The position numbers and the translations under genes are program-made. The notes beneath the pieces are model-generated. The model was not told the DNA's origin, searched no databases, and worked only from the letters and a program-made list of their open reading frames with translations. This document shows positions 32,293 through 42,263 of a DNA stretch of 64,000 nt, piece after piece. This stretch comes from Spiribacter sp. 1M189. GTDB lineage: Bacteria > Pseudomonadota > Gammaproteobacteria > Nitrococcales > Nitrococcaceae. The stretch is from assembly GCF_040838345.1 (NCBI RefSeq), contig NZ_JBAKFF010000001.1, positions 930,001-994,000 on the forward strand, written 5' to 3'. The first letter of the stretch is position 1. Each line of letters begins with the position of its first letter.

Positions 32293-33789
32293 ATGCAACC
32301 CGATACATTGAAGCGCTACGGTGCCGCGCTACACCGTTCCTGGTTTTTCAACTGGCGCGGTGACCTGATCGCCGGCATGGTGGTCGCCTTGGCGCTCATT
32401 CCCGAGGCCATCGCATTTTCCGTGATTGCCGGTGTGGATCCCGCCCTAGGGCTCTACGCCTCATTCTGCATGGCGGTGGTCATCGCGTTCACCGGCGGCC
32501 GTCCCGGCATGATCTCCGCCGCCACGGGCGCGATGGCCCTGGTGATGATCACGCTGGTTGCGGAACACGGGGTGGAGTATCTCTTCGCCGCCACCATCCT
32601 GACCGGCGTGCTGCAGATCGTATTCGGGTGGCTCCGGCTCGCGCGCTACATGATGTTCATCCCGCGCACCGTGATGCAGGGATTCGTCAACGCCCTGGCG
32701 ATCCTCATCTTCCTCGCACAGATCCCCCACTTCGTCGGACACGGGATCCCCACCTACCTGATGGTGGCCGCCGGGCTCGCGATCCTTTATCTGTTCCCTT
32801 ACATCAATCGCTCGATCCCCCCGGCGCTCGTCGCCATTGTGGCACTGACGGCCGCGGCCTATTTCCTTGGCAACCCCTTCAACTCAGTCGGTGACATGGG
32901 TGATCTGCCATCGGGCATGCCGATGTTCGGTCTGCCGACGGTGCCGTTCACGCTGGAGACCCTCCAGATCATCCTGCCGACGGCACTGGCCCTGACCATC
33001 GTCGGCCTGCTGGAATCGCTGCTCACCGCTTCCATCGTCGATGATCTGACCGACACGCCAAGCAAGAAAAACCGCGAGTGCAATGGCCAGGGGGTCGGTA
33101 ATATCGTCTGCGGGCTGTTCGGCGGCATGGCCTCATGCGCCATGATCGGGCAGTCGATCATTAACGTGAAATCGGGTGGCCGGGGGCGGCTCTCCAGCCT
33201 CGCGGCAGGCATCTACCTGCTGTTTTTCATTCTGGTCCTCGGCGACCTGGTCTCCATGATCCCGATGCCCGCGCTGGTCTCGGTGATGATCATGGTGTCC
33301 ATCGGCACGTTCGACTGGAGCACCTTCTCAATGCTGCGGAAAATGCCGCGCAGTGATGCCTTCGTCCTGATCGTGACGGTCGTCACCGTGGTGGTCACCC
33401 ACGATCTTTCCAAGGGCGTATTCGCCGGTGTCCTGCTGAGCGCGGTCTTTTTCGTCCGCAAACTCGCCCGCCAGATCGAGGTCACCGCCCGGGACAGCGA
33501 TGACGGAGGACATCGGACATACGACGTCCGCGGTGTGCTCTTTTTCGTGGCGGTCGATAATTTCCTCGCCGGCTTTGACTATGGCGCGGGCGTTCCCCGG
33601 GTCACCATCGACCTGACCCACGCCACGCTCTGGGACAGCTCGGCCGTCGGCGCCGTCGACCGTGTCGTCGGCAAGCTGCGTCGCAACGGCGTCGAAGTCG
33701 CGGTGCGGCATCCCGAAGGACAGGGCGCCCACCTGATGGACGAGTTATCCGCCTACGATGATCCCGGCGCGAGTTCGGTGGGACACTGA
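32293..33789 (+). CDS. SulP-family anion transporter with STAS domain
   Basis: The 498-residue protein has about eleven membrane segments and SulP markers: LIAGMVVALALIPEAIAFS, GVDPALGLYASF, GGRPGMISAATGAMALV and VGLLESLLTA, with a C-terminal STAS domain (VTIDLTHATLWDSSAVGAVDR). SulP proteins carry sulfate, bicarbonate or other anions. The shortness and the segment DTPSKKNRECNGQGVGNI fit the group often annotated as bicarbonate or sulfate permeases; substrate not determined. The 244-base gap upstream (32049-32292) shows no structure I can name. Confidence 0.9.
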   Translation: MQPDTLKRYGAALHRSWFFNWRGDLIAGMVVALALIPEAIAFSVIAGVDPALGLYASFCMAVVIAFTGGRPGMISAATGAMALVMITLVAEHGVEYLFAATILTGVLQIVFGWLRLARYMMFIPRTVMQGFVNALAILIFLAQIPHFVGHGIPTYLMVAAGLAILYLFPYINRSIPPALVAIVALTAAAYFLGNPFNSVGDMGDLPSGMPMFGLPTVPFTLETLQIILPTALALTIVGLLESLLTASIVDDLTDTPSKKNRECNGQGVGNIVCGLFGGMASCAMIGQSIINVKSGGRGRLSSLAAGIYLLFFILVLGDLVSMIPMPALVSVMIMVSIGTFDWSTFSMLRKMPRSDAFVLIVTVVTVVVTHDLSKGVFAGVLLSAVFFVRKLARQIEVTARDSDDGGHRTYDVRGVLFFVAVDNFLAGFDYGAGVPRVTIDLTHATLWDSSAVGAVDRVVGKLRRNGVEVAVRHPEGQGAHLMDELSAYDDPGASSVGH

Positions 33790-33817
33790 CGCGGCCGGAT
33801 AGACCCGGGGATCACAT

Positions 33818-34564
33818 ATGGCAATCGAAGTCTCGCTGCTCACGGTTTTTATTGCGGCCCTGATCACGGCCATCACCACGGGCCTGGGGGCATTCCCGCT
33901 GATGTTCGCCGATCGCGTCAGCACGCGCTGGCTGGCGGTTGGTGCGGCAATGGCCGGCGGGCTCATGTTTGCCGCCAGTTTCAGCCTGATCACCGAGGGC
34001 AACAGCATCAATGGATGGCGTACCCTGATCGGCATCGCCAGCGGGCTTGTCCTCGTGGTGCTCTCTGACCGCCTGATGGATCATCTCGATACGCCCGACA
34101 TCGGTGAGTTGCGGGGCGCGAACGCCCGCAAGGCCATCATGATCGTCGGGGTGATGACCATCCATTCTTTCGCCGAGGGGGTCGGAGTCGGAGTCGCTTA
34201 TGGCGGCGGGGAGCAGCTCGGTGTCTTCATTACGGCAGCGATCGCGATCCACAATATCCCGGAAGGCCTCGCGATCGCCCTGGTACTCGTCCCTCGTGGC
34301 GTTCCGGTCTGGCAGGCGGCCGGATGGTCGATTTTCTCCAGTCTCCCCCAGCCCCTCATGGCCATTCCCGCCTATCTCGCCGTGTCCGCCTTCGAACCGT
34401 TCCTGCCCATTGGTCTCGGCCTGGCTGCCGGCGCCATGATCTGGATGGTATTCGCCGAGATGATGCCCGATGCGAACAGGGACCTGTCAGCCTCGGCGGT
34501 GGGTATCGTCGTTGTCCTCGCCTTCATGGGCATGTCCGCCCTACAGATCATGCTGCCGCATTGA
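33818..34564 (+). CDS. ZIP-family metal transporter
   Basis: The 248-residue protein has eight predicted membrane segments with the metal-site motifs MTIHSFAEGVGVGVAYGGG (TM4) and AIHNIPEGLAIALVL (TM5). ZIP carriers bring Zn, Fe or Mn into the cytosol. It follows the SulP gene by 28 bases on the same strand, so the two are probably co-transcribed. Confidence 0.92.
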   Translation: MAIEVSLLTVFIAALITAITTGLGAFPLMFADRVSTRWLAVGAAMAGGLMFAASFSLITEGNSINGWRTLIGIASGLVLVVLSDRLMDHLDTPDIGELRGANARKAIMIVGVMTIHSFAEGVGVGVAYGGGEQLGVFITAAIAIHNIPEGLAIALVLVPRGVPVWQAAGWSIFSSLPQPLMAIPAYLAVSAFEPFLPIGLGLAAGAMIWMVFAEMMPDANRDLSASAVGIVVVLAFMGMSALQIMLPH

Positions 34565-34605
34565 TGGCGTTGCCGCTATCCCGTTAATTGGCCGGCACGG
34601 ATGCC

Positions 34606-35799
34606 TTATAGCGCCTCGCTGCCGGCCTCCATCGCCTCGAAGGTGACGATTTGCTCGCGGCCCGATGCCTTGGCGCGGTAGACCGCCTGATCCGCATGCC
34701 GCAGGAGCTGATCACCCTGCAGCGGCATGTCGGCATCGAAGTGCGCGACGCCGATACTGCCGGACACATTGACGATGGCACCGACCCCACGCAGCGGGAT
34801 CGGTTCGCTGATCGCAGCCAGAATACGGTCGAAGATCGCGCCATCATCCGCGCTCTCACGGATGACCAGGACGAATTCGTCCCCGCCGAGGCGGGCGATC
34901 GTATCCTCGGCGCGGAGGTGATTGCTGAGCCGTCGCGCGATAACGCAGAGCACCTCGTCACCGGCCTCATGCCCGTAGCGGTCGTTCACCGGCTTGAACC
35001 AGTCCAGATCGAGCATGCCCACCGAGAAATGCTCGCCAGTGCGGGTCGCGTGGGCAATCGCCTGATGTAGACGATCGGCAAGCAGCCGGCGATTGGGCAG
35101 TCCCGTCAGCGTGTCGTAACTCGCCAGACGTCTGAGTTCATCCTCGTAGCGCAGCCGCTCGCTGATGTCGTGGACGACGGCGATATGGCGCACCGTGCCG
35201 CGTTCCTGATTACGCACGGTGGAGACGAACGCCTCAGCGGCGTCACATCCATGCACCGCGCGCAGTCGATCCGAGACGAACGGAAAAGAGAAATTGCCCT
35301 CCGCATCCGATCGGAACTGATACAGAACGCCCGGGACGCTGTTGGCATGCATCCGGAACTGGCCGTACCAGGCGCGCTCCGCTTCCGTCAGTCGATGCCT
35401 GGCGGTGTCGTCCACATGCGTGCCGCGCACCCAGTGCGGCTTGCCATCCGAGGTGCGACTGATCACGCGCCCGCGGTCGTAAACCCAGACCCAGTGGCCG
35501 TCACGGTGGCGCATCCTCACCACCGCGGCGTAGTAGTCGCTTTCGCCCCGGAAATGACGTTCCAGCCGGCGCTGCCGGGAGTAAAGGAAGCCAAGCAGCG
35601 CGAAGAGGGAAAGCCCGACGAGACCCGCTACGGCAACATTCACAATCGGCAGGCGGTAGGCCGGGACACCGAGGCTGAGCGACTGGCCCCCGGGGCCCGC
35701 CGCGGTCGCCGTAGTCGAGCCGATGGCGAACAGCGTTAACAGCGAGACGATGTAGCGGCGGAGGCGCGCCTCCATGCCGGTCGAAACCAACTGGCGCAT
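34606..35799 (-). CDS. Membrane PAS-GGDEF diguanylate cyclase with shortened PAS domains
   Basis: The 397-residue protein has a membrane segment at about 53-73 and two incomplete PAS segments. Residues 80-135 hold only the C-terminal half of a PAS domain (RMRHRDGHWVWVYDRGRV). Residues 150-213 hold the N-terminal half of another (SVPGVLYQF, FPFVSDRLR) joined directly to its final strand (IAVVHDISERL). GGDEF follows: SYDTLTGLPNRR, MLDLDWFKPVNDRYGH, GGDEF at 305-309 and I-site RAED at 296-299. It should be an active, product-inhibited cyclase. ATG 35775 is an alternative start. Confidence 0.85.
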   Translation of the reverse strand: MRQLVSTGMEARLRRYIVSLLTLFAIGSTTATAAGPGGQSLSLGVPAYRLPIVNVAVAGLVGLSLFALLGFLYSRQRRLERHFRGESDYYAAVVRMRHRDGHWVWVYDRGRVISRTSDGKPHWVRGTHVDDTARHRLTEAERAWYGQFRMHANSVPGVLYQFRSDAEGNFSFPFVSDRLRAVHGCDAAEAFVSTVRNQERGTVRHIAVVHDISERLRYEDELRRLASYDTLTGLPNRRLLADRLHQAIAHATRTGEHFSVGMLDLDWFKPVNDRYGHEAGDEVLCVIARRLSNHLRAEDTIARLGGDEFVLVIRESADDGAIFDRILAAISEPIPLRGVGAIVNVSGSIGVAHFDADMPLQGDQLLRHADQAVYRAKASGREQIVTFEAMEAGSEAL

Positions 35800-35834
35800 C
35801 AGAGTCAGAAAAACGTCATGCTTGGAAACCCGCC

Positions 35835-35876
35835 GGATAATAGCGCTTCAGCCGCCTGGCAGGGCGCGAATTATCC
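35835..35876. repeat. Inverted repeat between the GGDEF and HD-GYP genes
   Basis: GGATAAT and ATTATCC, each flanked inside by GCGC, face each other across 28 bases in the 105-base gap. On the minus strand it lies between the HD-GYP stop and the GGDEF start. There is no T-tract, so an operator or processing site is as likely as a terminator. Confidence 0.3.
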
Positions 35877-35904
35877 CCGAATCTCAGGCATTTCGAGCCA
35901 GCGG

Positions 35905-36969
35905 TCAGTTTCGATATAGGCGTCTCACTGCCCGGGTATGCGGTAGGTTGAGGAGCAGTGCATCGACGCACGAGCCATCCAGCCGACCGACCTCCACCAG
36001 GCGCTGCAGCTCCTGGATCGCCTCGTCCTCGCTCCAGGCGGGCTTGTAGATCCGTTCGGAAATGAGGGCGTCGAATACATCCGCGACGGCGGTAATGCGC
36101 CCTTCCATCGAGATCTCATCGCCGGAGAGCCCGAGGGGATAGCCACTTCCGTCAAGCCGTTCGTGATGCTCGCCGACAATACGTGACAGGCACTCGAAGC
36201 GTTGCGGGGAAAACGCACATAGCGCATTGAGGTCGTCGACCAAGGAGAGCCCGACCTCCACATGCTTTTGCATCACGCGGCGCTCATCCTCATTCAAGAC
36301 ATCAGGTTTCAGAAGAACCGCATCAGGAATGGCGATTTTGCCGATGTCATGCAGGGGCGCGAGCAGATAGATATCCTGCACGCGCTCATCCTCGAGGCGC
36401 CTCTTCCGCCCCAGCTCGGACGCGATGAGGCGGCAGTAAGCCCCCATGCGCGAGAGGTGGTCGGCCGTCTCAGAGTCCCGCAGGCGGGTGATCCGCTCCA
36501 GAATCCTGACAGGTAGCTCACTGCTGACGATCGCATCGGCAATGAGCGCGGCATAGGCTTCCAGATCCTCGCGCACTGAGGCCGGAAACGCCTCCGGCAG
36601 GAAACTGTTGTAGAAAGTGAAACCGAGGAATTGCCCACGCTTGTACATGGGCACGGTGACGGAGGCCTGGTAGTTCTCGTCCAGCAGCCAGCGGGAGTGC
36701 CGACGGTCCCGGTCCAGGGACTCCTGTAGAAACGGCAGATATCGCGTCTGCCCCGTCTGCGCAATACGGGAGAGAGAAGCACTATCGGATAAATGGAATT
36801 GGTAGCCTTTCAGCGGCCTCCCCTGCAAAGTGCTGTCCACATAGGTCGTGAGCTCGTCACTTTCCGCATCGTAAAGCGCACAGGCGATCCGATTGACTTC
36901 CGGAATGGCCGCAATGACCCGCGAATGAATGCGCGCGAGCTGCTCGCTGATGCTGGAGAGCTGGTCCAA
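35905..36969 (-). CDS. GAF/HD-GYP cyclic-di-GMP phosphodiesterase
   Basis: The 354-residue soluble protein has a GAF-like domain at about 5-150 (ACALYDAESDELTTYVDS, VTVPMYKRGQFLGFTFYNS) and HD-GYP from about 165: SETADHLSRM, LHDIGKIAIPD, MQKHVEVG, GEHHERLDGSGYP and ADVFDALISERIYKPAW. All metal ligands and GYP are present. It should degrade c-di-GMP under control of a small molecule or redox signal at the GAF domain. It is divergent from the TackOD1-GT2 operon across 189 bases, opposing the GGDEF enzyme downstream. Confidence 0.9.
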   Translation of the reverse strand: MDQLSSISEQLARIHSRVIAAIPEVNRIACALYDAESDELTTYVDSTLQGRPLKGYQFHLSDSASLSRIAQTGQTRYLPFLQESLDRDRRHSRWLLDENYQASVTVPMYKRGQFLGFTFYNSFLPEAFPASVREDLEAYAALIADAIVSSELPVRILERITRLRDSETADHLSRMGAYCRLIASELGRKRRLEDERVQDIYLLAPLHDIGKIAIPDAVLLKPDVLNEDERRVMQKHVEVGLSLVDDLNALCAFSPQRFECLSRIVGEHHERLDGSGYPLGLSGDEISMEGRITAVADVFDALISERIYKPAWSEDEAIQELQRLVEVGRLDGSCVDALLLNLPHTRAVRRLYRN

Positions 36970-37158
36970 GGATCCCCCATTTCACCCGGTTGTCCGGGTC
37001 CTGCTGGTCCGACCCGCCGATAGCTGATTATATTACCAGCTCATTATTTCGCTGCATTCGGTGGACCTTTCACCCAAACGGCGCATTGTCGCTCTCTCCC
37101 TCTGCTCCTACCGTCTCGTTGCACTCACCGCAACAAGCCCACGGAGCGACCCGAACCC

Positions 37159-38517
37159 ATGCATTTCAGCAGCGAGCGGCCAGGATCGAATCTCGTCGTC
37201 ATCGGCGATGATCAACTCGATGGACTGATCATCACGGGACTGACGGGAGAGGCCTTGCTGGAGGCCGCGCGCGCCCAGCGTGGCGATCCCCGCCATGCCT
37301 ATTATCCGTTGTTTGCGCTGCCGTCGGGCCCACCGCCGGACGGTACGCATGGCGCCGAGCTGGCGATGCTTCTGGACGGTATCGTCAATGACGAGGCCGA
37401 AGCCGCCTCCATGGCCGCCGAACACTGGCGCGAGGTCGATGGCCAGCATGCACTGCCGGCATCAACGCCGGAGGCACGGCTGATCAGCTACCTCGCGCTG
37501 CGGCCGTCCCGCCCTCTGGCACCATTGCGTGACTGGCGCAGCCCCACCGTCTACCGCTTCCCCCTCCTGGCCGCGCTGGGCGCCGGTGAAAGCGGCGAGA
37601 GCCTGTCGGTACTGGCCGCCCGAGGACTGCTGGTCCGACGCGAGCTCGTCGAGCGGCTGCGTCTTTGCCCGGGTTGCGGCGGCGCCCATCTGCTGTTCGT
37701 CGATACCTGCCCGAACTGCGCACGGATCGATATCGCCGCCGATGAATCCATCCATTGCTTCCGTTGCGGTCATGTCGAGAGCCAGGGGCGGTTCATGTCG
37801 GATGGCAGTCTGCAATGCCCCAACTGCCGAGCGCGTCTGCGCCATATCGGCACAGACTATGACCGGCCGCTTGAGCACTACCTGTGCCGCCGCTGCGGAG
37901 ACCGCTTCACGGAGCCGGATGTCGTGGCCCGATGCAGCATCTGCAGCCATGAATGCCATCCGGAAATGCTGACGACGCGCGAGGCCGGCACGTACCAGCT
38001 CACCGAATACGGACGGATGAGCGCCCTGGACGGCAGCGCCGGTCGGGTGTTCGAGCGCTTCGATGCCGATCGCTATCTCAACCCCGAGCGCTTTGAGCAT
38101 CTACTCGACTGGCAGATGGGAATCACCCGGGCGCACTCCGACTGCCGGTTTGCCCTGGTACTCATCCAACTGCGTTGGCCGGCACCGGCGCAGTCGGCGC
38201 AAGGCCGGGCGCAGGCCCGTGTCCTGGTCCGGGAGTTCGCGGAACGACTGCCGGAGTTCCTGCGCGAGGCCGATATCTGCGCGCGAACCCGGGAGCCCGA
38301 TTTCTGGATCCTGATGCCGCAGGCGGATTCACGGGAGGCGAAAGTCATCCTCGATCGGCTGCAGAGTGCGATCCGCGACGAGGGAACACCACGCGAGGCC
38401 GGACTGAGCCTCTCAGCGCGTGTGCTGCGCTCGTCCGATCTGCGCGGCCTCGGTAAGGATGCGCGGTCCGTCATGGACCAGGTGCTTCGAGCATCCGAAG
38501 GCACAGCGAATGCTTGA
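37159..38517 (+). CDS. TackOD1-like zinc-ribbon protein with a degenerate GGDEF domain
   Basis: The 452-residue protein has a mixed N-terminal part (1-165). Three zinc-ribbon-like Cys sets follow (C170/C173 with C184/C187, C200/C203 with C220/C223, C243/C246 with C259/C262), typical of TackOD1 (Thaumarchaeal output domain 1) proteins. Residues about 295-450 look like a GGDEF fold with the signature replaced by REPDF (FLREADICARTREPDFWILMP in outline) and metal-binding residues lost, so no cyclase activity is expected. It may sense c-di-GMP or control the synthase encoded just after it (8-base overlap). There is no membrane segment. Confidence 0.7.
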   Translation: MHFSSERPGSNLVVIGDDQLDGLIITGLTGEALLEAARAQRGDPRHAYYPLFALPSGPPPDGTHGAELAMLLDGIVNDEAEAASMAAEHWREVDGQHALPASTPEARLISYLALRPSRPLAPLRDWRSPTVYRFPLLAALGAGESGESLSVLAARGLLVRRELVERLRLCPGCGGAHLLFVDTCPNCARIDIAADESIHCFRCGHVESQGRFMSDGSLQCPNCRARLRHIGTDYDRPLEHYLCRRCGDRFTEPDVVARCSICSHECHPEMLTTREAGTYQLTEYGRMSALDGSAGRVFERFDADRYLNPERFEHLLDWQMGITRAHSDCRFALVLIQLRWPAPAQSAQGRAQARVLVREFAERLPEFLREADICARTREPDFWILMPQADSREAKVILDRLQSAIRDEGTPREAGLSLSARVLRSSDLRGLGKDARSVMDQVLRASEGTANA

Positions 38518-39808
38518 AGCCTCTGTTCAAGCCGCCTTGATGATGGCGTCCCAGCAACCGGTCTTTCCCATGGTGCTGATCCTGGAGCTGCCGCTCTACG
38601 CACTGATCATCGCCGGCATCATTCGCTATCGTCTGATCCATCGGCGGGCCCATCGACAGCCGCGGCTGCATGCGCCGCCGGTGAGCTGCGTGATCACCTG
38701 CTACAGCGAGGGCCCGGCGGTCCAGAACACCATCCGCAGCCTCGCCAGCCAGATCTACCCCGGGTCCATCGAGATTCTCGCCGTTGTCGATGGAGCTTCG
38801 GCCAACCGCGAGACGTGGCAGGCGCTGCAGGCCATGAAGTCGGAGCTGGCCCGGTCGCCAAAACGTACGCTGAAGATCCTGCCCAAATGGCACCGCGGCG
38901 GACGAGTCTCTTCGATGAATGCCGGCCTGCAGCTCAGTCGCGGTGAGATCGTCATGGCGCTGGATGGTGATACCAGCTTCGACAATGACATGGTCGCCGA
39001 GGCGGTGTCGCGTATGGCCGACCCGGCCATGCTGGCGCTCACTGGCACGCTGCGGGTCCGCAATCGCAGAGCCAGTCTATGGACCCGATTCCAGGCGCTG
39101 GAGTATCTGGTGGGGCTGATCGCCACCCGAACCGGGCTCGGCTCATTCAATCTCCTCAACAACGTCTCGGGCGCATTCGGCGTCTTCCGCCGGGATGTCC
39201 TCACCCGCATGGGGGGCTGGGAGTGCGGCACCGCCGAGGATCTCGACATGACGATGCGCCTGAAACGCTATGGTCACCGCCGTCGCGATCGGCGTATCGG
39301 CTTTGAGCCCTACGCCATCGGTCATACCGATGCACCGTCCGGCTTCCGCGAGCTCCTCAAGCAACGCCTGCGCTGGGACGGTGATCTGTTCTATATCTAC
39401 GCCCGCAAGCACCGTGGCGCCTTCGCACCCGGCATCATGGGCTGGCCGAATCTCATCGCCACCCTCTGGTATGGGCTGCTCCACCAGATCGTCCTGCCCT
39501 TTGTCATCGTGATCTATCTGATCTGGATTGTCATGACACGGCCTGCCGAGCAGGTAATGGCAGGGCTGATCCTCATCTATGGCCTGTATCTGCTGATTTC
39601 GCTGGTCATGACCGTTATCGCCATTGCCATGCTCTCGGAGCGGCGTGGCGAGGACCTGCCACTGCTCCTCCTGCTGCCACTGTTCCCGCTCTACCGAGGG
39701 GGAATGCGGTTGTGGTCAACCGTGGCCATCCTCGCCGAGATCGTCCTCGAGACCCACAAGGACTCCAGCATGGCGCCCTGGTGGATCCTGAAAAGGAGCC
39801 GATACTGA
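38510..39808 (+). CDS. Processive family 2 glycosyltransferase (cellulose/hyaluronan synthase-like)
   Basis: The 432-residue membrane enzyme has one N-terminal segment (20-40) and about four C-terminal segments (from 320). The GT-A domain has Asp94 (AVVDGAS), DGD at 152-154, GTAEDLD (Asp244) and QRLRW at 285-289, the D,D,D,Q(Q/R)xRW set of processive beta-glycan synthases. Such enzymes polymerise and extrude the chain across the inner membrane. No PilZ domain is present. ATG 38510 overlaps the TackOD1 gene by eight bases and follows GAAGG. It shares one base with the TolC-like gene. Confidence 0.87.
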   Translation: MLEASVQAALMMASQQPVFPMVLILELPLYALIIAGIIRYRLIHRRAHRQPRLHAPPVSCVITCYSEGPAVQNTIRSLASQIYPGSIEILAVVDGASANRETWQALQAMKSELARSPKRTLKILPKWHRGGRVSSMNAGLQLSRGEIVMALDGDTSFDNDMVAEAVSRMADPAMLALTGTLRVRNRRASLWTRFQALEYLVGLIATRTGLGSFNLLNNVSGAFGVFRRDVLTRMGGWECGTAEDLDMTMRLKRYGHRRRDRRIGFEPYAIGHTDAPSGFRELLKQRLRWDGDLFYIYARKHRGAFAPGIMGWPNLIATLWYGLLHQIVLPFVIVIYLIWIVMTRPAEQVMAGLILIYGLYLLISLVMTVIAIAMLSERRGEDLPLLLLLPLFPLYRGGMRLWSTVAILAEIVLETHKDSSMAPWWILKRSRY

Positions 39809-41130
39809 TGCGTTTCGTCCTCTCTCTCACCCTCTCTCTAACCGTCGTGGCCCCGTCGCTCTCCAGCGTCTTCGCAATGGATGGAGAGCCGCCGCTCGAG
39901 CGCACGGCACTCGCCGCCTCCGTGCACACCTCGCCCCGGGTACAGGCCGCGCGCGCCGAAGCGGATGTCATCGAGCAGCAGCGCCGGCAACTAGCAGCCG
40001 AGGGCGGCTGGCGTGCCTTTGGCGCCCTGTCGGGCGCCGCCGTCAATGAGATCGAAGGCAATAACGGCAACCGACGATACGACCGTCTGCAGGGGAACAT
40101 CGGCGTCAGTCGCCCCCTGCTCGGCAGCAGGACGGCGCAGCGGAAAGCCCTGCTCACGCTTGAAAGACAGCGTTTACGCGCGGAGGGAATAAGCGGTGAG
40201 GTCGCCGAGGACGTAGGTAACGAATTGCGCGAATCCTATGCGAAATACTGGATCAATGATCGCCGCTACCGGCTGGCATCAGCCTGGCAGCAGACACTGT
40301 CGGAGCGCCTTGAAGGGCTTCGATCCCAGGTTGGTACCACCCTTCGCGCCTCGGAGTTTGCCGAGGCGCGTTCGGCTCTGCGCATCGCGCGGGAAAACCG
40401 GCAACGGGCGCGCAATGATCGGCAAATGCAGCTGAATACACTGCAGGCCCTGCTGGGCGAGAGCGTCAGCGCCTTCGACCCTCGCTGGCCGGTGGAGAAT
40501 GGGATCTGCCGGCGTGAGGGAGTACTCCTCGAGGCAGCGCTGGCCGCCGACCCGATCAGCGACAGCGCCCGCCAGGAACTGGCATTACTGCTGGAACGCG
40601 GCGCTAGCGGGCTCACCGATGAGGTCCAGTCGGACCTGGTGCTGACCCATACCCAGACTGTTGAGGACTGGGACGAAAACGGCGATGAGACGAGCGTAGG
40701 GCTCACGGCGGAAATCCCGCTCAGCCTGGGTCAGGCACGTGATGCGCGGCGAAATCTGCGCAACGCGGAAGTCCTTCAGGTCCAGCGTCGGATTGAGGCC
40801 AACCGGCAGGCACTGCGCGGGCGTATCGGGATGGCCATGGCGGCGCTGCGCAACACCACTCAGGCCCGGCAGGCCGCCGATGAGCGTCTGGACCAGGCCC
40901 GCGACGACTGGAATGAAGAGCGACGTCGACTGCAGTCCGGTCTGACACGCAGCCCGATGCCAGCTCTGCGCGCTGCGATCCGCTGGTATCAGATCGCCGA
41001 GGAGCGGCTCGATCGCGAGGCCGAATGGCTGCTCGCCCGCGCACCGCTGGAGCGATTCGAAACACCCGGCTGCCGCACACCGCGGCCGGGCGCAATGGAC
41101 ATGCCGCGCGAGGAGATCCCGACGTCATGA
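39808..41130 (+). CDS. TolC-like outer-membrane efflux protein
   Basis: The 440-residue protein has a signal peptide (MRFVLSLTLSLTVVAPSLSS onward, cleavage near VFAM). It then has long alpha-helical stretches rich in Arg, Gln and Glu with TolC-type heptads (ASVHTSPRVQAARAEADVIE, GVSRPLLGSRTAQRKALL), plus short barrel-like segments (SVGLTAEIPLSLGQARDARR). TolC proteins form a trimeric outer-membrane channel with a periplasmic tunnel. It is placed between a GT2 synthase and an HlyD-like adaptor, so polysaccharide export is the likeliest cargo. GGAG precedes the ATG by ten bases. Confidence 0.8.
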   Translation: MRFVLSLTLSLTVVAPSLSSVFAMDGEPPLERTALAASVHTSPRVQAARAEADVIEQQRRQLAAEGGWRAFGALSGAAVNEIEGNNGNRRYDRLQGNIGVSRPLLGSRTAQRKALLTLERQRLRAEGISGEVAEDVGNELRESYAKYWINDRRYRLASAWQQTLSERLEGLRSQVGTTLRASEFAEARSALRIARENRQRARNDRQMQLNTLQALLGESVSAFDPRWPVENGICRREGVLLEAALAADPISDSARQELALLLERGASGLTDEVQSDLVLTHTQTVEDWDENGDETSVGLTAEIPLSLGQARDARRNLRNAEVLQVQRRIEANRQALRGRIGMAMAALRNTTQARQAADERLDQARDDWNEERRRLQSGLTRSPMPALRAAIRWYQIAEERLDREAEWLLARAPLERFETPGCRTPRPGAMDMPREEIPTS

Positions 41131-42263
41131 GAGTTCAGTTCACCGGCCAGGGCACGCGTCGAATCGGGAGCGGTATTCCCGTCCAGTACGGCGCTGCCCG
41201 GCGTCCGACACCGCGGGTGCGTTGGCTGCTCGTCATACTCGTCGTCTCGAGCCCACTGATTTATCTGGCATGGATGATCCTGCGGGGCGGCCTCATGGTG
41301 GACGCGAGCGGCGTGCTCTCCTACGAAACGACCCGCGCCGGCGCCATGGTGAGCGGCGTTGTCCGGGAGGTGCTTGTCGAAGAGAACGACAGCGTCAGGG
41401 CCGGACAGCCTCTGATCCGCATGGAGAATCCGGAAATCCAGGGGCGGATCCGCCATCTACGCCAGGAACTCGAGCGGATCCGGGCAGACAAGGCCCGGAC
41501 GCGTAATCAGGCACAACGCAGCCTCACGATCGCACGCGACGAAATCGCCGCCCTGGAGACCTTGCTGGATGATCAGACGGAATGGTTGCAGCAGGTCAGG
41601 ACCCTGTCCCGCGGGGGCGCCATCACGGGACGCGAACAGTACGAGGTGGCGGCCCGACTGCAGGAGACGCGTCGTCGTCTGATGGAGGCAAGGGAACGCG
41701 CGCTCGAGGCGGAGCGGGCCTTGCAGCAGGGGGACGCCAGCCTGCGCGAGCGGGAGCGGCAGCTGCGCCTGTCACTGGATATCGCACGGACTAATCAAAC
41801 CTTTCTCGATATCCGTGCCGATGTGGACGGCGATGTTGTCGAAGTCGAGGTCAGACCCGGCGACACGGTGGGCCCTGGGACAACCCTGCTGACCATGACC
41901 CGACCCTCCGTTCCCGAGCTGACCGCCTACCTGCGCCCCGCCGATGGCGCCTTTGTGCAAGCCGGCGGCATCGTCCAGGTTCGCCTCCCGGACGGAAGCC
42001 GCCTACTGGGCGAGGTGATCGGCCGGCCGCGACTGACCGGCCGGGTGCCAGCGACCATGCGACAGCTCATCCAGGACGCGGAAGCCGCGCTGATGGTGCG
42101 CATCGGCCTGAACGAGACGGTGCCGGAGCCCATGGCGGTGCATGGCCTGCCGGTTTCCGTCGAGTTCGCAAGCGGCCTTGATGTGGCGCTCACGCGCCTC
42201 GATCTGATGCCGGCCATGGAGGGTGCGGTGACCGCCATCGCCCAGAGCCGCGAGACGCAATAA
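41127..42263 (+). CDS. HlyD-like membrane fusion/adaptor protein
   Basis: The 378-residue protein has one membrane segment (about 32-51), then a biotinyl-lipoyl half (GAMVSGVVREVLVEENDSVRAGQPL in outline), a coiled coil at about 105-210 and the second lipoyl half (DIRADVDGDVVEVEVRPGDTVGPG in outline), followed by beta-barrel segments. This is the membrane fusion protein that joins an inner-membrane machine to a TolC channel. ATG overlaps the TolC-like stop as ATGA. No ABC, MFS or RND pump is in the operon; the GT2 synthase is the only inner-membrane partner. Confidence 0.88.
   Translation: MRVQFTGQGTRRIGSGIPVQYGAARRPTPRVRWLLVILVVSSPLIYLAWMILRGGLMVDASGVLSYETTRAGAMVSGVVREVLVEENDSVRAGQPLIRMENPEIQGRIRHLRQELERIRADKARTRNQAQRSLTIARDEIAALETLLDDQTEWLQQVRTLSRGGAITGREQYEVAARLQETRRRLMEARERALEAERALQQGDASLRERERQLRLSLDIARTNQTFLDIRADVDGDVVEVEVRPGDTVGPGTTLLTMTRPSVPELTAYLRPADGAFVQAGGIVQVRLPDGSRLLGEVIGRPRLTGRVPATMRQLIQDAEAALMVRIGLNETVPEPMAVHGLPVSVEFASGLDVALTRLDLMPAMEGAVTAIAQSRETQ

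Follow-up and report, generated by a model that had tools for sequence, protein, structure and literature searches.

A conduit made of a family 2 glycosyltransferase (GT2), an HlyD-like adaptor and a TolC-like channel, XcsA-XcsB(HlyD)-TolC, was put forward in 2018 for the secretion of cyanobacterial cellulose; the source describes the model as lacking experimental validation and the genes as not lying in one operon (PMC12430437, citing Maeda 2018). We report here on a cassette of four overlapping genes at positions 37159 to 42263 of a 64,000-nucleotide stretch of Spiribacter sp. 1M189 (the window), encoding a TackOD1-GGDEF protein, a GT2, a TolC-family outer-membrane factor (OMF) and an HlyD-like protein. 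Judged by its genes alone, the cassette had the content of the Xcs type, with synthase, adaptor and channel present and no pump. Xcs is activated by cyclic di-GMP (c-di-GMP). It differs from the cassette in that XcsA is a cellulose synthase with a PilZ domain, its genes are scattered in Thermosynechococcus, and it has no TackOD1. From the sequences and structural models, we consider it fairly probable that the cassette is a c-di-GMP-controlled, synthase-dependent exopolysaccharide machine, in which the synthase would both polymerise and translocate the chain and an HlyD/TolC-like conduit would export it. Two features are new here: TackOD1 is paired with one GT2 clade, and its sensor is swapped, being either a degenerate GGDEF or a phospho-receiver (REC) domain.

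The first-pass annotation of this DNA had held that the dedicated channel went beyond known systems, a claim overtaken by the Xcs proposal of 2018 (PMC12430437), and had linked the cassette to BgsA/BgsB of Sinorhizobium. That system also has a GT2 with an HlyD-like partner, and BgsA is activated post-translationally without PilZ by c-di-GMP bound in its own C-terminal tail of about 139 amino acids (aa; PMC5567048). On the other hand, it has no TackOD1, no linked OMF has been described for it, and its HlyD gene comes first. In our tree BgsA grouped with BcsA (100/99), apart from the clade of TackOD1-linked GT2s, and blastp gave only 25 bits between BgsA and the window GT2. In the latter, about 19 residues followed the last long predicted helix (at 413), with no BgsA-like tail. 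Homology to BgsA was rejected on the tree and the tail length, and the proposed link fell with it.

PgaC/PgaD, the poly-N-acetylglucosamine (PNAG) synthase, is of similar size and has a separate c-di-GMP regulatory partner, and its NCBIfam family (TIGR03937, PgaC/IcaA) was the nearest to the GT2. However, identity to PgaC was only 31% over 238 residues, and the cassette has no PgaA porin, PgaB deacetylase or PgaD. Identification as a PNAG synthase was not accepted, as the score (128.5 bits) was far below the cut-off of 422.3 and the partners were TackOD1, HlyD and OMF. Alg8/Alg44 of alginate synthesis is likewise a GT2 with an HlyD-fold partner and is under c-di-GMP control, but in Alg44 the PilZ domain is fused to the HlyD part, whereas in the cassette the putative receptor and the adaptor are separate proteins. 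The NfrB/NfrA/YbcH system for the E. coli N4 glycan is also GT2-based, has its own outer-membrane protein and makes a secreted glycan under c-di-GMP control. In contrast to the cassette, its MshEN receptor is fused to the GT2 and it has no HlyD or TolC; NfrB was on a long separate branch in the tree.

The first gene of the cassette (37159..38517; like the other three, on the forward strand) encoded a 452-aa protein with Pfam matches to TackOD1 (E 7.8e-58) and GGDEF (E 2.8e-6). It was followed by the genes for the predicted processive-type membrane polysaccharide synthase (38510..39808; 432 aa; Glyco_trans_2_3, E 1.8e-20), for the OMF, the predicted exit channel (39808..41130; 440 aa; OEP, E 8.4e-13), and for the HlyD-like periplasmic adaptor with a long hairpin (41127..42263; 378 aa; HlyD_3, E 1.7e-11). 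The overlaps were 8, 1 and 4 bases. The GT2 ATG at 38510 preceded the end of the TackOD1-GGDEF gene at 38517, the OMF ATG at 39808 overlapped the GT2 stop codon (39806-39808) by one base, and the ATGA at 41127-41130 was common to the OMF stop and the HlyD ATG. These overlapping junctions suggested translational coupling. Pfam and coordinates thus confirmed the four overlapping genes in content and place as first annotated. Promoter and terminator scans gave nothing above chance, and a PHROGs search gave no match. The genome (1.95 Mb in three contigs) contained a single TackOD1 and no second GT2 of the cassette type.

The GT2 carried the motifs D94, DxD (152-154), (T/A)ED (243-244) and QRxRW (285-289), with predicted membrane helices both before and after them. 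In the alignment D94, D152/D154, D244 and Q285/R286/R288/W289 were invariant (39/39 rows), and E243 was kept in 35 of the 39. By motifs and predicted helices, the GT2 is of the processive polysaccharide synthase type. Its AlphaFold2 (AF2) model (predicted local distance difference test score, pLDDT, 84) was nearest, among polysaccharide synthases, to the Chlorella virus hyaluronan synthase (Z 30.6 over 375 residues, root-mean-square deviation, rmsd, 2.9 A), followed by BcsA (Z 25.7). The GT2 matched the CelA model poorly (21.5 bits). In the tree the TackOD1-linked GT2s lay apart from BcsA, BgsA and NfrB, with weakly supported basal forks and with PgaC and NfrB on long branches. The GT2 is nearer to PgaC and hyaluronan synthase than to BgsA. 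Hyaluronan and cellulose synthases thread the chain across their own membrane part. Motifs and fold suggest that the inner-membrane GT2 would polymerise a nucleotide sugar and thread the chain in the same way.

The OMF showed the marks of the TolC family, namely a signal peptide, with an N-terminal hydrophobic segment at 3-23, and two OEP stretches (49 bits); at the genome level both repeats were over the cut-off, the first only just. The HlyD-like protein had one N-terminal membrane helix, its single hydrophobic segment being at 30-54, and a strict RLS-type docking motif at the hairpin tip was not seen in all rows. The adaptor would bridge the periplasm and the TolC-like factor would form the exit.

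No ABC, RND or MFS pump was found inside the cluster. Some of the neighbours at related loci were checked: about 30 by Pfam scans, and those at the plasmid loci through their annotation. Among those scanned or annotated, neither an ABC, RND or MFS transporter nor a second polymerase recurred. An ABC ATPase near locus L056 lay beyond another gene and was not shared with other sets. The reported absence of any known type of pump was thus borne out in the cluster, with no recurrent pump in related sets. A separate pump or polymerase in homologous sets, which the first-pass annotation had named as the finding that would speak against it, did not turn up in a check of 45+ loci.

For the putative regulator, the closest comparison is with PelD and BcsE, dead GGDEF receptors with a conserved RxxD I-site (PMC8461298) that regulate a polysaccharide synthase. 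The TackOD1-GGDEF protein shared the dead GGDEF and the kept RxxD. It differed in its other parts: PelD has transmembrane helices and a GAF domain and acts with a GT4 (PelF), BcsE has a different N-terminal part, and neither has TackOD1. The TackOD1 part (PF18551, of CXXC zinc-ribbon type, residues ~102-281) scored 195.6 bits against a cut-off of 32. Its cysteine pairs 170/173, 184/187, 220/223, 243/246 and 259/262, together with His199/Cys203, were kept in 38-40 of 39-40 rows. The degenerate GGDEF part covered residues ~304-452, and in the AF2 model of the protein (pLDDT 82) it matched the GGDEF fold with a Z of 15.7 over 143 residues (rmsd 3.1).

The GGDEF signature read REPDF in the window, and GG(D/E)EF was kept in 0 rows. 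As judged from sequence, the GGDEF half has lost catalysis. On the other hand, the I-site RxxD was present as READ (369-372), with R369 in 33 and D372 in 36 of the 37 rows. D372 ranked first and R369 third in conservation among the 145 GGDEF columns, while the active site had decayed. An Arg or Lys at position 400 occurred together with R369 and D372 in 30/37 rows; from the spacing in PleD, we take this position to be the secondary I-site Arg, as a lead rather than a test. The domain had been called degenerate at first pass, which was right for the catalytic motif and missed the intact I-site. The accompanying claim that the mode of c-di-GMP control is new was not supported, since receptors of this kind, with a dead GGDEF and a kept I-site, are already described in PelD and BcsE (PMC8461298). 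The absence of PilZ, also claimed, was true not only of the cluster proteins but of the whole genome, so that a PilZ hidden at some other locus was rejected. The genome had 8 other GGDEF domains. The soluble TackOD1-GGDEF protein is thus predicted to be the c-di-GMP receptor and regulatory subunit. Its dead GGDEF would bind c-di-GMP at the I-site, and TackOD1 would pass this state to the GT2, as suggested by the conservation, the constant pairing and the sensor swap.

A scan with the GT2 recovered 16 loci from beta-, gamma- and former deltaproteobacterial groups, a Planctomycetota metagenome-assembled genome (MAG) and a MAG labelled Bacillota. The TackOD1 gene was directly upstream of the GT2 in all 16. 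The converse search used Pfam TackOD1, without the GT2 as query. Among 59 close relatives, 11 had a TackOD1 above the cut-off, as did 15 genomes in a phylum-wide set of 398; the Spiribacter genome itself is counted in both. A GT2 adjoined it in 10/11 close-relative loci (window included), in 15/15 phylum-sample loci (window excluded) and in 13/13 plasmid records with TackOD1 (some judged from matching coordinates only). The gene order was kept far beyond the genus, which indicated that the arrangement is not due to chance. The cassette is a real, recurrent and widespread module.

An HlyD gene was linked in nearly all related sets, and a profile-recognised OMF, often of about 700 aa versus 440 aa in the window, in about half. 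The check recommended at first pass, a search for the four-gene set in other genomes, thus found the set to recur with TackOD1-GT2 as its constant part. In the L068 and L069 branch, TPR and AMIN-domain proteins lay near HlyD, and the outer-membrane part therefore seems exchangeable. The closest named relative was an uncultured Ectothiorhodospiraceae MAG (L002; 92% in the GT2). At least three separate GT2 lineages were present in the genus (the window type; L054/L056; L027/L057), suggesting horizontal gain.

In Palleronia and Roseibium, a REC-TackOD1 protein adjoined the same type of GT2, and genes for a histidine kinase or Hpt lay nearby. The presence of REC in place of GGDEF suggested that TackOD1 is the constant output and the sensor a variable input. 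The REC-TackOD1 design, with TackOD1 as response-regulator output domain, is known from archaea; at its naming the function of TackOD1 was termed obscure (PMC5847659). No paper linking TackOD1 with a glycosyltransferase, and none beyond PMC5847659 with TackOD1 by name, was found in a search that had subscription journals and preprints outside its scope. Our confidence is evenly divided on the wider proposal that TackOD1 may be a general output domain controlling one GT2 clade allosterically, with interchangeable inputs (dead GGDEF for c-di-GMP, REC for a phosphorelay), as part of a mobile, undescribed family of tripartite polysaccharide exporters that have no pump. The module gives a domain of unknown function a testable role. 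It also points to an exopolysaccharide family in several classes of Proteobacteria and outside them, with one member on a 29-kb mobilizable plasmid. As a compact operon, the module would allow the unvalidated GT2-HlyD-TolC conduit model to be tested.

The archaeal precedent and a cysteine arrangement like that of the PriA insert domain (PMC5847659) would also fit a TackOD1-GGDEF protein that binds nucleic acid, with the zinc ribbons as a DNA/RNA module, and that acts on operon expression instead of on the enzyme. We consider this very unlikely, since TackOD1 is translationally coupled to the GT2 and adjoins it at almost every locus, and Pfam found no helix-turn-helix in the window protein.

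Several observations weighed against a c-di-GMP-controlled exporter. The best single structural match of the GT2 was PcManGT (Z 32.4), for which the PDB title says only mannosyltransferase. In Phyllobacterium (L089) the set was followed by an undecaprenyl-phosphate glucose phosphotransferase, fitting a lipid-linked route; two sets related to L089 did not have this gene. Moreover, TolC-family channels usually belong to pumps. These points would agree with a GT2 whose product is a short glycan, lipid-linked or capped (either a glycolipid or a single sugar unit within a larger pathway), with HlyD and OMF exporting this product or serving another pump. That is quite improbable in view of the full set of processive motifs, QRxRW included, invariant in 39/39 rows, and of the lack of recurrent acceptor-lipid enzymes, flippase or pump among the scanned neighbours.

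The same weighing has to count the roughly half of related sets without a linked channel gene, which under the exporter reading may borrow a housekeeping channel, the locus L055 of the same genus, with TackOD1 and no adjoining GT2, and the lack of conservation of the adjacent diguanylate cyclase (DGC) and HD-GYP genes. A few members, among them L046 (EET) and the closest relative, L002 (GDR), had also lost the I-site Arg, with Glu and Gly, respectively, at the R369 position. These losses indicated that c-di-GMP control cannot be universal and that some branches of the genus may be losing it. With the I-site broken in L017 and L049 as well, and with some TackOD1 partners having REC or no recognisable GGDEF, TackOD1 being the constant part, the same exporter might contain a TackOD1-GGDEF protein that serves as a scaffold or as a zinc/redox-responsive subunit, its GGDEF a dimerisation remnant and its inputs differing by lineage. 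We consider such a non-sensing role unlikely, since R369 and D372 were among the three best-kept columns of an otherwise drifting domain, and preferential keeping of these ligand residues argued against a mere remnant. D372 alone may be structural, leaving R369 as the informative residue.

Upstream of the cassette, on the reverse strand, were genes for a divergent GAF and HD-GYP-type protein, a possible c-di-GMP phosphodiesterase (PDE; 35905..36969; HD_5, E 2.6e-32), and for a PAS-GGDEF protein with an intact LGGDEF, a possible local DGC (34606..35799; GGDEF, E 2.8e-43; LRAEDTIARLGGDEF). They belonged, with a ZIP-like gene, to a 3.2-kb block (33765-36972) absent from the sister locus L002, where SulP was followed directly by the cassette, with 86% identity on both sides of the missing block. 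The local DGC and PDE were rejected as parts of the module on this ground. GGDEF/EAL genes lay close upstream in L064 and L017. E. coli NfrB is served locally by DgcJ (PMC8669469); by analogy, a similar local service of the cassette is possible, though not conserved.

Other loci showed further variations. L087 (4074-5771) and L088 (3891-5771), with REC-TackOD1 beside the same GT2 type, represented a phosphorelay version of the module. A lone 192-aa TackOD1 stood two genes after a GGDEF protein at L055 (8974-11762), the sole TackOD1 locus without a synthase. The L014 contig labelled Bacillota, which had the cassette with an OMF, is probably mis-binned or from a two-membrane Bacillota. The 29-kb mobilizable plasmid of Aeromonas caviae (L080, NZ_AP024139.1) carried the whole four-gene cassette. 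The TackOD1 proteins of L080 and L083 were labelled 'diguanylate cyclase' in RefSeq; related proteins had no active site, and the module suggests that these two are receptors instead.

A GH16-family glycosidase gene followed the HlyD gene at L012 (10310-11221), which hints weakly at a beta-glucan as the product; galE adjoined two Rhodobacterales sets, and an alpha-amylase gene was near another set. These genes were too scattered for the sugar product to be read from them. At L004 (6669-10798) two genes directly followed the cassette, one for a PilZ-HlyD protein laid out like Alg44 and one for a GT2 whose C-terminal domain resembles pectate lyase. At L049 (10238-13650) a second, BgsA-like GT2 with a C-terminal PilZ lay, together with a gene for HlyD, immediately upstream of the TackOD1 cassette.

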